This document shows positions 2,607 through 33,972 of a stretch of 33,972 nucleotides of DNA, in pieces. A program made the position numbers and the translations under genes. Under the pieces are notes generated by a model. The model saw nothing but the letters and a program-made list of their open reading frames with translations, searched no databases and had not been told where the DNA came from. Position 1 is the stretch's first letter. Each line of letters opens with the position of its first letter. This stretch comes from a virus. The stretch covers positions 1-33,972 of the IMG/VR virus record IMGVR_UViG_3300036770_002966. One strand, 5' to 3'.

Positions 2607-3230
2607 ATGAACCGCCCAACAAAAAAGAAACAATCTAACTCAATTTTAGATACAAACACAGGCGCATGGCCTCTGTACCTTGATCACGTTGAAAATTGGG
2701 CTTGGAAAAAATCAGTTTTTTCAGATGATGAATTGGATGAAATTATCCGATTGGGCAACTCACTCAATCTTGACGAAGCAACGACGATCGGCAATACAAA
2801 TACAAAAAAAATTAGAAATTCGTCAGTTAGATTCCTTTTCCCGAACGAATCAAGTTCATGGATTTTTGCGAAATTGACCGATGCGGTCAATCAAATAAAT
2901 GAACAATTTTTCAAATTCGATTTGACGGGATTTGAGCAAGGTTTGCAGTTCACACGCTATTCGGCACCAGATCAGCACTATGAATGGCATCTCGATCGGG
3001 ACTACATGACGCCGACGAGGAAACTCTCTCTTTCAGTGCAATTATCTGATCCGAAAGATTACAAAGGCGGCCAACTTCAATTGAAGTATGGGCGCACTGA
3101 CACAACCATCAAGTGCGAGAGGGGATTGATTAGTTTTTTCCCGTCTTACACCTTGCATCGAGTAAAGCCGGTGACTGAGGGTACTCGGTATAGTTTAGTT
3201 GCTTGGATTAGTGGGCCGCCTTTCAAATGA
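2607..3230 (+). CDS. 2-oxoglutarate/Fe(II)-dependent oxygenase, prolyl-hydroxylase-like
   Basis: This 207-aa protein has the double-stranded beta-helix signature of the 2OG-Fe(II) family. The iron ligands are H128 and D130 (WHLDRD) and the distal H184 (LHRVKPV). R194 (EGTRYSLVAW) is the expected 2-oxoglutarate-binding residue. The C-terminal half matches prolyl-4-hydroxylase-type (P4Hc/PKHD) enzymes. The family uses O2 and 2-oxoglutarate to hydroxylate a substrate, often a protein side chain. It sits four genes after a collagen-like fibre and overlaps a glycosyltransferase, so a virion fibre is an attractive substrate. That is inference, and host proteins or nucleic acid are alternatives. Part of the gene is AT-rich (20 G/C of 60 at 2701-2760). 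Similar enzymes are known in cyanophage fibre regions. Confidence 0.85.
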   Translation: MNRPTKKKQSNSILDTNTGAWPLYLDHVENWAWKKSVFSDDELDEIIRLGNSLNLDEATTIGNTNTKKIRNSSVRFLFPNESSSWIFAKLTDAVNQINEQFFKFDLTGFEQGLQFTRYSAPDQHYEWHLDRDYMTPTRKLSLSVQLSDPKDYKGGQLQLKYGRTDTTIKCERGLISFFPSYTLHRVKPVTEGTRYSLVAWISGPPFK

Positions 3231-4030
3231 TCAGTGTCATTACGCCCACCTATAAAACTCCAGCCCATCTATTAGCGAGAACGTGGGCGAGTCTCAAAGC
3301 CCAAACCATGACCGATTGGGAATGGGTCGTTTGGGACGACACGCCGAACAGTAACCAGGTTTGGCGCCAGTTGTATGGCATGGCGGCCGATGAGCGTTAC
3401 CGGCTCCGAGCATTCAGGGGTCACACTCATTCGGGTCGGATCGGCGAGGTGAAGCGGAACGCCAGCATGGTTGCGGCCGGCCAGATCATTGTTGAACTTG
3501 ATCACGACGATGAGCTGACACCCGATTGCTTGGCTGAACTTGAGCAAGCGTTCGCTGATCCTGAAGTCGGGTTTGCCTATTCGGACTGGTGTGAGATTCT
3601 GCCTGACGGCCAATCCGGCCGTTATCCGAAAGGCTGGGCTTTCGGTTTCGGCGCCGACTATTGGTCAGACCAGTACGGTTGTTGGGTGATGTCAGCCCCG
3701 CCAGTCAACGAAATCACGATGAATCACATCGTTTCAGCACCGAATCATGTGCGTGCGTGGCGGGCCGATGTCTACCGGCAACTCAACGGCCACGATGCCG
3801 CCTATCCGGTAGCCGATGATTATGAGTTGTGTGTGCGGACTTTCCTGGCAACCAGGATGGTTCACATACCTAAAATGCTGTATAAGCAACATATTGGGCC
3901 GATGACCGCTCAACGGACCCGAAATCAGCAGATTCAGACCTTGGTGGCCGACATTTCGGCCCGTTATAGAACCCAAATTCACGATAGATGCGTCGAATTG
4001 GGGTTAGAAATCCGAGAAACAGCCGTATGA
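3227..4030 (+). CDS. Family 2 glycosyltransferase
   Basis: This 267-aa GT-A fold enzyme overlaps the oxygenase stop (ATGA). The N-terminal strand MISVITPTYKT and the WDDTP motif (D37, D38) bind nucleotide. The metal-binding DxD is LDHDDEL (D92, D94, D95). The length and order match inverting GT2 enzymes, which transfer a sugar from a nucleotide-sugar donor. Its tight coupling to the oxygenase and fibre genes suggests modification of a virion protein, though phage GT2 enzymes may instead modify host surface glycans or DNA. No membrane segment is evident, so it is probably cytosolic. Confidence 0.85.
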   Translation: MISVITPTYKTPAHLLARTWASLKAQTMTDWEWVVWDDTPNSNQVWRQLYGMAADERYRLRAFRGHTHSGRIGEVKRNASMVAAGQIIVELDHDDELTPDCLAELEQAFADPEVGFAYSDWCEILPDGQSGRYPKGWAFGFGADYWSDQYGCWVMSAPPVNEITMNHIVSAPNHVRAWRADVYRQLNGHDAAYPVADDYELCVRTFLATRMVHIPKMLYKQHIGPMTAQRTRNQQIQTLVADISARYRTQIHDRCVELGLEIRETAV

Positions 4031-8285: not shown

Positions 8286-8522
8286 ATGAAACTTGTTTAC
8301 GCCGTCGCCACCGCCAGCGTGGTCGACCCAGCCACCGGCCTCAAGATCAGGTTGGTGGAGTTGGAACCTTGGGACGCCAACGATCCGTTCGTCAAGGTTC
8401 GCCCTGATTTGTTCTCAGATGCCCCTCTGGCCGTCCGTAGAACCGTCCCGGCATCTGCGCCCGTCGAGACTGCTTCGAAGGCTCCTGGGGCGAAGAAGGC
8501 GGTCAAGCGTGAAGACTGGTGA
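8286..8522 (+). CDS. Small protein downstream of capsid, unknown function
   Basis: This 78-aa protein has its start set by a very strong Shine-Dalgarno (AAGGAGGA) nine bases upstream. The N-terminal half (MKLVYAVATASVVDPATG) looks like beta strands, and the C-terminus is Lys/Ala-rich (APGAKKAVKREDW). Small proteins at this place can be head decoration or head-completion proteins. I do not recognise the family. The next gene starts inside its 3' end. Confidence 0.65.
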   Translation: MKLVYAVATASVVDPATGLKIRLVELEPWDANDPFVKVRPDLFSDAPLAVRRTVPASAPVETASKAPGAKKAVKREDW

Positions 8523-9636
8523 CACCCTGTTCGGGTACCTTCACCCGAACGACATCGCCGCCTCATTTCACAAGTCCCTGATCAACCTCGTTGGCTGGGA
8601 CATGGCGCATAATCACCGGCTATCCGGCTGGGCCTCAGTCAAATGCGCCTCAGGTGGCATCCCCGAAGGCCGAAACCAACTAGTCGCCCAATTCCTTGAA
8701 TCCCACTGCGATTGGCTGTTCATGGTCGACGCCGACATGGGCTTTGAACCATGCGCCCTCGATCAGCTCCTCGCCTTGGCCGACCCCGACGAGCGACCTA
8801 TCGTCGGTGGCCTGTGTTTCGCCCAGCGGGAAGCAGCCGACGACGGGATGAGCGGATACCGCTGTATCCCTCGAGCCACGATCTTTGATTGGATGCAACA
8901 CGAAGACGGGCATCACCGCTTCACCGGTCGTGCCCACTACCCTGCCAATACTTTGGTTCGATGTGCCGCCACCGGCGGCGCCTTCCTCGTGATCCACCGT
9001 TCGGTGTGTGAGAAAATCAGGGAAACACACGGCGATCGTTGGTTTGACCGAATCCGTGGCACCGACGGCGCCCTCATGGGCGAAGACATCTCCTTCTTCG
9101 CCCGCACTCAGGCACTCGGAATCCCCTGCTACGTTCACACCGGCATCCGAACCACCCATCAAAAGAACCTGTGGCTCGGCGAAACCGACTTTTGGCATTC
9201 GTTCATCCCGCCGGCCGCCACCCAAGAATTCGATGTCTACCTGACTGACGAGGAAGACCCTGGCGACGAATGGGTGAACACGCTCAAAGCCACAACCGGC
9301 TGGTGCGGCGACATTTTCGACAATCCGACACTTTCCAGCCGGCTCGGCCATTCGCCCTGGATTCTGATCACTCAGTCTGACGCCCGGTTTCGACCGGCCT
9401 GGTACGACCACGCCCTGGACAGCGCCAACCGCTATGAACGACCTGTCATCGGCTTGAACGACTGCCATACGCCAGCGATCAAGCGTGGCGAGGATGCCCG
9501 GTCGGTGCTGGTTTCTCGGGCATGGCTCGAGCAGCATGATCTAATGTCGGTTGCAGACATCGTGAAAACCGCTCAAAAGAACCAACAGTTTCTAGCCTCG
9601 CTGGCCTCCGAGGTCGTGCAGGCACCCAAGAAGTAG
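8509..9636 (+). CDS. Two-module glycosyltransferase-like protein
   Basis: This 375-aa protein uses a GTG start that overlaps the previous gene by 14 bases, preceded by AAGAAGGCGG. The first module has CDWLFMVDADMGFEP (DxD at D74-D76), CAATGGAFLVIHR near residue 152 and MGEDISFF (GED, residues 191-193), the order seen in GT-A/GT2-type transferases. A second stretch (residues about 281-345; SDARFRPAWYDHAL, RPVIGLND, VLVSRAWLEQHD) resembles another glycosyltransferase-like fold, possibly incomplete. It lies between capsid and head-tail connector genes, where an enzyme is not expected, so capsid or decoration-protein glycosylation is conceivable (inference). DNA or host-surface modification is an alternative. 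Confidence 0.75.
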   Translation: MKTGDTLFGYLHPNDIAASFHKSLINLVGWDMAHNHRLSGWASVKCASGGIPEGRNQLVAQFLESHCDWLFMVDADMGFEPCALDQLLALADPDERPIVGGLCFAQREAADDGMSGYRCIPRATIFDWMQHEDGHHRFTGRAHYPANTLVRCAATGGAFLVIHRSVCEKIRETHGDRWFDRIRGTDGALMGEDISFFARTQALGIPCYVHTGIRTTHQKNLWLGETDFWHSFIPPAATQEFDVYLTDEEDPGDEWVNTLKATTGWCGDIFDNPTLSSRLGHSPWILITQSDARFRPAWYDHALDSANRYERPVIGLNDCHTPAIKRGEDARSVLVSRAWLEQHDLMSVADIVKTAQKNQQFLASLASEVVQAPKK

Positions 9637-32016: not shown

Positions 32017-32370
32017 ATGGCTGGTTTGGCTGGCACATACAACATCATTGCTGATCAGGGCGCCACGTTCGGTCGCACGATCACCTGGAATGACGCCGAC
32101 GGTGACCCCGTCGACCTTGACGGCTATACGGCCCGAATGCAGGTTCGGTCAATTGTGTCGTCGGCTGAAGTAGCGCTCGAGCTCACGACCGAGAACGGCC
32201 GGATTGCTCTCGGTGGCGCTTTGGGGACGATCACGTTGACGGTGCCCGCCTCGGCGATGGACGATATTGGGGGTGGCAATTATGCCTATGATTTGGAGTT
32301 GGTGAACGGGTCTGATGTGACTCGTTTGTTGATGGGTTCTTTTACGGTGCGGGCTGAGGTGACTCGATGA
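32017..32370 (+). CDS. BppU-like fibre/baseplate adaptor protein
   Basis: This 117-aa all-beta protein starts one base after the previous stop. [37 protein letters not shown] and [20 protein letters not shown] are the characteristic strands of the BppU N-terminal family, which links receptor-binding proteins to the baseplate. It overlaps the fibre gene (ATGA), so it probably anchors the collagen-like fibre to the virion. Confidence 0.75.
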
Positions 32371-33972
32371 GTTTTCAGGTGAACGATCAGCCGCCGAAGG
32401 TAACCGTCACCGAAGAAAACGTCAGTGCTTCTATCACAATGTCGGGTCAGGGGCCGCAAGGTCCGCAAGGCCCGCAGGGTGTTCAGGGCCCGGTTGGTCC
32501 GCAGGGTGCGACCGGCCCGCAGGGCGCTACTGGCGCTCAGGGTGTGCAAGGCCCTCAAGGTGCGACGGGTGCGACGGGCGTTCAAGGCCCCGAGGGTATT
32601 CAGGGTGCGACAGGCCCACAAGGCGCCCAGGGCGCCCAAGGTGCGACGGGTGCGCAGGGTGCGACCGGCCCGCAAGGCTCGACAGGCCCACAAGGTGATC
32701 AGGGGCCTCAGGGTATTACTGGCGCTCAGGGTCCGCAGGGTGCGCAAGGTCCGACAGGCCCCCAGGGTTCAGCCGGCCCCCAAGGCCCACAAGGCGAAAC
32801 TGGCGCCCAGGGACCGCAGGGCGATACCGGCCCTCAGGGTGCGACTGGCCCTCAGGGAGCGCAAGGTGACACTGGCCCGCAGGGCGCTCAGGGTGCGCAA
32901 GGCCCACAGGGCGATACGGGTGCTCAGGGTGCTCAAGGCCCGCAGGGCGATACTGGTCCGCAAGGTGACACCGGTCCACAAGGCCCGCAGGGCGACACTG
33001 GCGCACAAGGCCCACAGGGCCCGCAAGGTGACCTCGGCCCACAAGGCGACACAGGTCCGCAAGGCCCACAAGGTGCGCAAGGAGCTACGGGTGCTACCGG
33101 CGCTCAGGGCCCTCAAGGTGCGCAGGGCGCTGAAGGTCAATCAACGTCGTTCTATGACTACAAGATCAAGACGACCTCGACCTCAGGCGATCCCGGTTCG
33201 GGCTACATCATCTACAACAACGCCGCACAGACATCGGCGACACAGATCAATGTTTCGCATCTGACGTTCGATAATTTTGACGTTGACATCTTCCTCACCC
33301 TGCTCGGTGTCGGCGATGTTCTGGTAATTCAGGATTCGACAGATTCGAACGATTATCAGAAGTGGGAGATCAGCTCGGCGCCGACGGATCAGGCCGGCTA
33401 CATCGAATACCCCGTCACGCTTCTTGACAGCGGTGGTGACGGCACGACCGGCTTTGCCAACGACCTTGAGGTTATATTCGCAATCTCGACGCAGGGCCCG
33501 CAGGGCCCGCAGGGTGCGCAGGGCGCTACTGGCCCTCAGGGTGCCGAAGGTCCGCAAGGCCCACAGGGCGATACGGGTGCTCAGGGTGCTCAGGGCCCAC
33601 AGGGCGATACGGGTGCTCAAGGTCCGCAAGGAGCCCAGGGCGATACCGGCCCGCAAGGCGACACCGGGCCTCAGGGAGCGCAAGGTCCGCAAGGTGATAC
33701 AGGTGCGCAGGGTCCGCAAGGCGCTCAGGGCGATATTGGCCCTCAGGGCAATACCGGGTCTCAAGGCGCACAGGGCGCACAAGGTCCCCAAGGCGCTACG
33801 GGTGCGACTGGTGCTCAAGGCCCTCAGGGCGATATCGGTCCGCAAGGTGCGACAGGTCCGGCCGGCCCGCAAGGCGACACCGGCCCACAAGGCGCACAAG
33901 GCGCACAAGGCCCGCAGGGTGCCGCTGGGGCTCAAGGTGCAACCGGTCCTCAGGGTGCAACTGGCCCTCAGG
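32367..33972 (+). CDS. Collagen-like tail fibre protein, 5' part (runs off window end)
   Basis: The gene begins ATGA-overlapped with the adaptor gene. Residues 1-28 are a non-collagenous head ([19 protein letters not shown]). Residues 29-257 are Gly-X-Y triplets, residues 258-376 a folded 119-residue insertion ([16 protein letters not shown]..), and triplets resume from 377 to the window end. Joining 33972 to 779 closes an in-frame 601-aa gene with a second helix of 70 triplets and a 15-residue tip. Proline is confined to the X position, and Thr often occupies Y (GDT, GAT). This trimeric rod is likely the host-contact fibre. Confidence 0.88.
33846..33972 (+). repeat. 127-bp exact repeat, copy 2 (window end)
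   Basis: Identical to 652-778 and ending exactly at the window end. Interpreted as the assembly overlap that closes a 33,194-bp circle, with bases 1-651 as an alternative version of 33195-33845. Confidence 0.9.

Follow-up and report, generated by a model that had tools for sequence, protein, structure and literature searches.

A predicted 2OG-Fe(II) prolyl hydroxylase encoded behind the glycine-rich tail tip of a phage, and its association with proline-rich tips

The window, which is the whole stretch of DNA analyzed here, covers the 33,972 bases of an IMG/VR virus record with linear topology. Its fiber, tip, chaperone-like, oxygenase, and family-2 glycosyltransferase genes lie on the plus strand. 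The window opens inside a collagen-like tail-fiber gene, whose C-terminal part occupies positions 1-978 (collagen-type triplets, with a non-collagen domain at 1-294). This gene is followed by a small fiber-associated protein (982-1311; phrog_1276 and tail-fiber phrog_693), which the sister phage L083 also encodes, by a glycine-rich tail-fiber tip or receptor-binding protein (1313-2215; PF21722, phrog_2295; the longest reading frame runs from 1292 to 2215, with an ATG at 1313), and by a chaperone-like phrog_7759 protein (2212-2598), which is a constant neighbor of glycine-rich tips. Next come a 2OG-Fe(II) oxygenase of 207 amino acids that resembles prolyl hydroxylases (2607-3230) and a family-2 glycosyltransferase (GT2; 3227-4030). 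Portal, prohead protease, and capsid genes lie downstream of GT2, and a second glycosyltransferase-like gene (8293-9636; phrog_34859) is located between the capsid gene and the head-tail adaptor gene. The N-terminal part of a collagen-like fiber is encoded at the far end (32367-33971). The two ends of the window align with each other (1-778 against 33195-33972, the last 778 bases; 87.6%) inside the collagen-like fiber gene, and the non-collagen domain, which is found at both ends of the window, is present as a single copy in the sister fibers of L082, L086, and L110. The two ends therefore most likely belong to one fiber gene that continues at base 1, and the sequence suggests that the window is probably a nearly complete genome whose contig was cut inside the fiber repeat. 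PADLOC yielded only a 2OG "CAS associated" model.

The reading frame at 2607-3230 matches Pfam family PF13640 (2OG-FeII_Oxy_3; 2.2e-15, well above the cut-off) and phrog_61 ("2OG-Fe(II) oxygenase"; 2e-37). A sequence-only reading of this locus had credited the protein with a full set of metal and cosubstrate ligands, and residues H128, D130, H184, and R194 are indeed in place and do not vary among the 25 relatives aligned. The protein thus has the HxD...H triad, the 2OG-binding Arg, and the jelly-roll fold of the 2OG-Fe(II) oxygenase superfamily. In a profile search against PDB sequences, the best match was of the PiuC type (3e-16), followed by the chlorovirus prolyl hydroxylase vCPH (2.8e-10) and by prolyl 4-hydroxylases (P4Hs) from B. 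anthracis (3e-8) and from an alga (7e-6). The AlphaFold2 model of the oxygenase (pLDDT 87.6, pTM 0.82) gave as its top structural matches the P. putida PHD:EF-Tu complex (Z 21.0) and PHD2:HIF (Z 20.8), with PiuC (Z 19.1), algal P4H bound to (Ser-Pro)5 (Z 18.4), and chlorovirus vCPH (Z 18.2) further down. Judged from this model and from its sequence, the oxygenase is protein-prolyl-hydroxylase-like, although not exclusively so, because PiuC is also close. The modeled fold leaves the substrate unnamed, and prolyl hydroxylases and PiuC are inseparable by it. The GC content of the oxygenase gene is 41.8% and that of its neighbor is 45% in a genome of 59.3% GC, which implies that the oxygenase gene was probably acquired.

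DNA homology to sister phages ends near position 1326 and returns at 3237-3239, right at the start of GT2, which implies that the tip, the chaperone-like gene, and the oxygenase constitute a swapped stretch. Four sisters (L082, L083, L086, and L110, with TerL identities to the window of 97%, 93%, 72%, and 69%, respectively) keep the fiber, GT2, and, where the sequence fetched extends that far, the portal, and lack the oxygenase. GT2 is therefore a core gene that lies outside the oxygenase cassette. We rejected the idea that the enzyme and GT2 form a hydroxylation-glycosylation pair, because GT2 is retained in these four oxygenase-less sisters and because sister homology resumes at its start.

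The model of the tip (1313-2212; pLDDT 90.3) resembles the Bxb1 tail tip (Z 11.8) and the Pam3 fiber (Z 11.5), with the next match at Z 3.9, and the tip is thus predicted to adopt the glycine-rich lattice fold of the Pam3 gp24 type. In Pam3, the glycine-rich domain of gp24 is described as lying at the receptor-binding end, and the chaperone gp25 as being needed for assembly (PMC9608196). By analogy, the phrog_7759 protein is probably the assembly chaperone of the tip. In 61 of the 81 enzyme loci (80 viral relatives plus the window), a glycine-rich gene, defined by a stretch of at least 35% Gly, was found among the eight preceding genes, compared to 9 of 37 TerL-centered comparison loci that contained any glycine-rich gene at a looser cut-off of 25% Gly. 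Loci centered on phrog_7759 contained a glycine-rich gene in 75 of 80 cases and an oxygenase in 4 of 80, which implies that the tip and the chaperone-like gene are the base module and that the oxygenase is optional in that clade. An association of glycine-rich tips with a 2OG oxygenase was not found in open-licence PMC papers.

We compared the proline content of tips at loci with and without the enzyme. Because clade confounded an initial comparison, the analysis was repeated on loci retrieved through partner genes rather than through the enzyme. Among 42 tips reached through the chaperone-like gene of L002, a close relative with a proline-rich tip (41 of 151 rows were dropped for room or identity), proline made up 8.1-13.0% of non-Gly residues in the 5 with the enzyme and 0.6-7.1% in the 37 without it. 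In the window's own clade, enzyme loci were as proline-poor as the others. When all 135 tips that had not been fetched by the enzyme were pooled, the enzyme was present at 20 of the 26 with a proline content of at least 8% of non-Gly residues, compared to 3 of the 109 below 8% (Fisher test, 9e-16). Moreover, proline separated tips with the enzyme from those without it better than any other of the 19 residues compared in this set (AUC 0.91), whereas alanine did not differ between the two groups and glycine barely did (0.37 versus 0.35). A phylogenetic regression (PGLS) on the chaperone tree (n = 110) gave a 1.78-fold difference, with p = 3.6e-6 at lambda 0.49, p = 4e-4 at lambda 0.8, and p = 0.083 at lambda fixed at 0.999. 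Parsimony places 9 changes of the enzyme on this tree, and independent events are few because the enzyme is fixed or absent in most tip clades.

A held-out scan with another chaperone-like gene recovered the enzyme in 57 of 57 loci with room (7 near-duplicates were dropped, and the 3 rows without the enzyme had less than 1 kb of contig left). Tip proline content was at least 8% in 55 of these 57 loci and was 7.8 and 7.9% in the remaining two. This result confirms the pairing between clades and carries no within-clade contrast. Two further tip types, each reached by its own partner genes, are likewise proline-rich, with the enzyme mostly present. In the cyanophage-like tips, 338 of 440 prolines precede a glycine, and 228 of these are in the context Asn-Pro-Gly; X-Pro-Gly is the context used by collagen P4H. 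An effect of base composition was rejected as the source of the proline enrichment: glycine-rich genes at enzyme loci have a GC content of 0.50 versus 0.55, even though proline codons are GC-rich, and neither the chaperone-like protein nor the other proteins differ in proline content with or without the enzyme.

The rule has exceptions in both directions. Six high-proline tips in the 135-tip set lacked the enzyme. The L270 "tip" is a collagen-like protein with GPQ triplets; L284 shares a contig with L045, where tblastn found the enzyme gene that the gene caller had lost; L286 breaks off within an array of oxygenases; and L300 bears another PF13640 oxygenase. The remaining two, L296 and L301, are genuine counter-examples with proline-rich tips and no enzyme nearby. 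Conversely, the window's own tip is proline-poor, at 4.1% of non-Gly residues, and has 7 prolines in its glycine-rich region, two of which precede a glycine. The enzyme also accompanies proline-poor tips at L138, L188, L140, L018, L072, L073, and L075, and tips of less than 7% proline at L007, L009, and L010. The enzyme copy at L140 (6909-7427) is degenerate, having lost the HxD motif and the second His, and stands with a proline-poor tip and with no collagen-like gene in view. In the T4-like loci L022 and L033, relatives of the enzyme lie far from any tip, among non-fiber genes.

The sequence-only reading had proposed that the oxygenase modifies the collagen-like fiber. The fiber is real (PF01391, 8.4e-34) and does share a cluster with the oxygenase, from which it is separated by three genes, including the glycine-rich tip. 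As that reading had also observed, fiber proline takes the X position (GPQ) and never the Y position: X is proline in 30 of 71 triplets at the 5' end of the window and in 53 of 130 at the 3' end (a share of 0.41-0.42), and Y is proline in 0 of 71 and 0 of 130, so that no triplet proline precedes a glycine. X-Pro-Gly does occur among relatives of the enzyme, as Asn-Pro-Gly in the cyanophage-like tips and as Y-position proline beside the bacterial homologs L317 and L338. The expectation that the enzyme and Gly-X-Y fibers would occur together across phages was mostly contradicted: of 80 viral relatives with fetched flanks of up to 6 kb, 66 had no Gly-X-Y tract of at least 6 triplets, 14 had one, and a single locus (L007) had a tract of at least 15 triplets. 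The five closest relatives of the enzyme (64-68%) showed no such tract within their fetched flanks. Moreover, all five sister fiber loci (L082, L083, L086, L110, and L430, the last reached through the non-collagen domain of the fiber) keep the fiber without the enzyme. The share of X-position proline in these sister fibers is 0.41 (L082/L428), 0.18 (L083), 0.49 (L086/L429), 0.40 (L110/L427), and 0.41 (L430), and hence shows no consistent difference with or without the enzyme.

In a scan of bacterial genomes, 66 of 80 loci were scored, and 14 without a recovered gene call were left out. Most of the scored loci had no Gly-repeat neighbor, and three had a homolog of the enzyme immediately adjoining a collagen-like gene. 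The collagen-like neighbor has 41 triplets with 24 Y-position prolines in Trinickia symbiotica JPY-345 (L338; 3175-4931), 90 triplets with 36 Y-position prolines in an Acidimicrobiales MAG (L317; 1-1688), and 51 triplets with 21 X-position prolines in an Actinomycetes MAG (L389; 4489-6414). PF01391 collagen-like genes number one, one, and two genome-wide in these three, respectively, and Gly-X-Y tracts of at least 15 triplets were confined, among the 66 scored loci, to genes that directly adjoin the homolog. Around the three hosts, homologs were present in 1 of 249, 11 of 298, and 12 of 298 genomes (the latter two sets share members), and there was no Gly-X-Y gene in the approximately 1.5-kb flanks of those other homologs, so that the pairing is not conserved in related genomes. 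Read by eye, the L317 and L389 collagens terminate in tails that resemble sortase anchors, and an integrase-like gene is found near L338.

These results bear on the possibility that the enzyme is specific for the adjoining collagen-like fiber and, in the window, for the X-position proline of its G-P-Q triplets. Such specificity would fit the shared cluster, the proline-poor tip of the window, the GPT collagen-like gene upstream at L138 and L188 (the other two intact low-proline-tip loci of the window's chaperone clade), the dead enzyme at L140, where no collagen is in view, and the bacterial homologs that adjoin collagen-like genes. We nonetheless consider it unlikely, given that five sister phages maintain the fiber without the enzyme, that the X-position proline share of the window fiber lies within the 0.40-0.49 range of four of the five sisters (all but L083) and thus shows no visible adaptation, that the fiber places no triplet proline before a glycine, and that long Gly-X-Y tracts are nearly absent from viral relatives. 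A linked collagen substrate gene is therefore not a family-wide feature, being found at 14 of 80 viral loci (at least 6 triplets) and 3 of 66 bacterial loci. What stands of the original link between enzyme and fiber is the prolyl-hydroxylase-type fold and a family-wide tie to Gly-repeat fiber or tip proteins whose distinguishing residue is proline; the link to the collagen fiber in particular is weak.

A hydroxylase directed at the host, with EF-Tu or a ribosomal protein as its target, might instead aid infection, and the tip slot would then merely take cargo genes. The best structural match is indeed P. putida PHD, a prolyl hydroxylase that acts on EF-Tu; some relatives are distant from fiber genes; and in tip loci without the enzyme the slot is occupied by unrelated genes (M23 peptidases account for 22 of 58 slot genes, GT2 for 3, and methyltransferases for 2). 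However, PHD2, the P. putida enzyme, and the P4Hs all fall within about 3 Z units of each other, so that EF-Tu is not singled out, and a host target predicts neither the proline enrichment of the neighboring tip nor the bacterial adjacency to collagen-like genes. We therefore regard a host target as improbable. We separately rejected the idea that oxygenases in general occupy the position after the chaperone gene, since only 1 of the same 58 slot genes, from loci without the enzyme, matched an oxygenase family (2OG-FeII_Oxy_5), and M23 peptidases were the commonest occupants. Finally, a PiuC/YbiX-like oxygenase that acts with the adjoining glycosyltransferase on surface sugars or metabolites is very improbable: PKHD-type PiuC proteins are the top sequence matches, including the best in the PDB, and GT2 lies directly downstream, but the window enzyme misses the NCBIfam PKHD/YbiX cut-offs (77 bits versus 143) and GT2 is a core gene in sisters without the oxygenase, which leaves no pair.

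Other oxygenase-like genes accumulate at these loci. A second oxygenase-like family, with an HxD motif and a distal His, joins the enzyme in 50 loci (for example, L002:5364-5942 and L011:6587-7150); its PHROGs label, "ferrochelatase" (phrog_2954), is probably wrong. One protein of 381 amino acids (L358) matches both the enzyme and this second family and looks like a fusion. At L030 (5371-7797), four consecutive oxygenase-like genes, assigned to the second family, the enzyme family, DUF6445, and 2OG-FeII_Oxy_5, follow a glycine-rich fiber gene and form an oxygenase array. The cultured Pelagibacter phage HTVC033P encodes two glycine-rich proteins that contain proline, with two annotated 2OG oxygenases and a "putative ferrochelatase" downstream of them. 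In addition, phrog_274, labeled "DNA endonuclease V", matches 2OG-like proteins (L010:6579-7070, 3.6e-41; window 2607-3230, 1.3e-5), and in P-SSM7 a gene named DNA endonuclease V lies directly behind the oxygenases; the phrog_274 label may be wrong.

We propose, with a probability of roughly 60%, that the window oxygenase uses Fe(II) and 2-oxoglutarate to hydroxylate proline in a Gly-repeat virion protein encoded alongside it, either a tip or a collagen-like protein, and thereby matures that protein. The enzyme has an intact active site and a prolyl-hydroxylase-type fold, is linked to tips, and covaries with tip proline; from these observations we infer the prolyl chemistry, the target, the timing, and the benefit. 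The usual target of the family would be the proline-rich, glycine-rich receptor-binding tip, with its extended polyglycine- or polyproline-II-like strands, and for some members it would be a Gly-X-Y protein of the collagen-like type. Hydroxylation would take place in the infected cell on the nascent, still unfolded chain, as it does when P4H acts on collagen chains, and would stabilize the extended strands or add hydroxyls at the receptor surface. In the window, the enzyme probably arrived by horizontal transfer behind a proline-poor tip, and its substrate may be the GPQ fiber or the few prolines of the tip, which include two X-Pro-Gly sites, or the enzyme may still be unmatched to a substrate.

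In a broader and more tentative reading, to which we give slightly less than even odds, many tailed phages, represented by environmental and largely aquatic contigs, would carry a self-contained fiber-maturation module made up of a tip, a chaperone-like protein, and at least one 2OG oxygenase. These modules would often pair the prolyl-hydroxylase-like enzyme with the second oxygenase-like protein mislabeled as ferrochelatase. The enzyme would hydroxylate tip proline, or a collagen-like fiber where that is the proline-rich partner, virions would bear hydroxyproline where they contact the host, and bacterial surface collagens would be substrates of related enzymes. Phages may thus hydroxylate their own host-binding fibers.

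Viral prolyl hydroxylases are already known from vCPH, and the new element here is the partnership with the tip. Like the window enzyme, PBCV-1 vCPH (PDB 5c5t) is a virus-encoded 2OG oxygenase of the prolyl hydroxylase type; PBCV-1 is a chlorovirus that infects a eukaryotic alga, whereas the window gene belongs to a tailed phage and lies behind a glycine-rich tail-tip module. The P. putida PHD (4iw3) and human PHD2/EGLN1 are protein prolyl hydroxylases that differ in having EF-Tu and HIF as targets, and we know of no link between either enzyme and fiber genes. The Mimivirus collagen lysyl hydroxylase/glucosyltransferase is another case of viral collagen modification, but acts on Lys, which is absent from the Gly-X-Y tracts of the window collagen. 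The B. anthracis prolyl 4-hydroxylase (5hv0/3itq), whose gene is chromosomal, matches the window enzyme over most of its length, although the similarity is remote (phmmer 0.0016); it was reportedly found to modify collagen-like substrates, going by the title of a 2016 paper by Schnicker and Dey. Pam3 gp24 and gp25 likewise pair a glycine-rich tip with a chaperone, and the window tip shares the fold of gp24 and of the Bxb1 tip, but the Pam3 system differs in that the available text of its description mentions no hydroxylase (PMC9608196).

The auxiliary metabolic genes recognized in marine phages include those for 2OG-Fe(II) oxygenases, which had the highest copy number of any such gene in one cyanophage (PMC10436341), and the viral use of prolyl 4-hydroxylase "remains cryptic" in the words of a Baltic Sea paper (PMC9301287). 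If tail tips are hydroxylated, then genes filed under host metabolism would be virion-maturation enzymes. According to one paper, the prolyl hydroxylase that collagen requires is missing from bacteria (PMC4565658), and bacterial surface collagens are said to lack hydroxyproline; the three bacterial collagen-hydroxylase gene pairs would contradict the former statement. If tips are hydroxylated, a tip produced recombinantly in the absence of the enzyme might misbehave, and these phages would rely on a post-translational modification to recognize their hosts.
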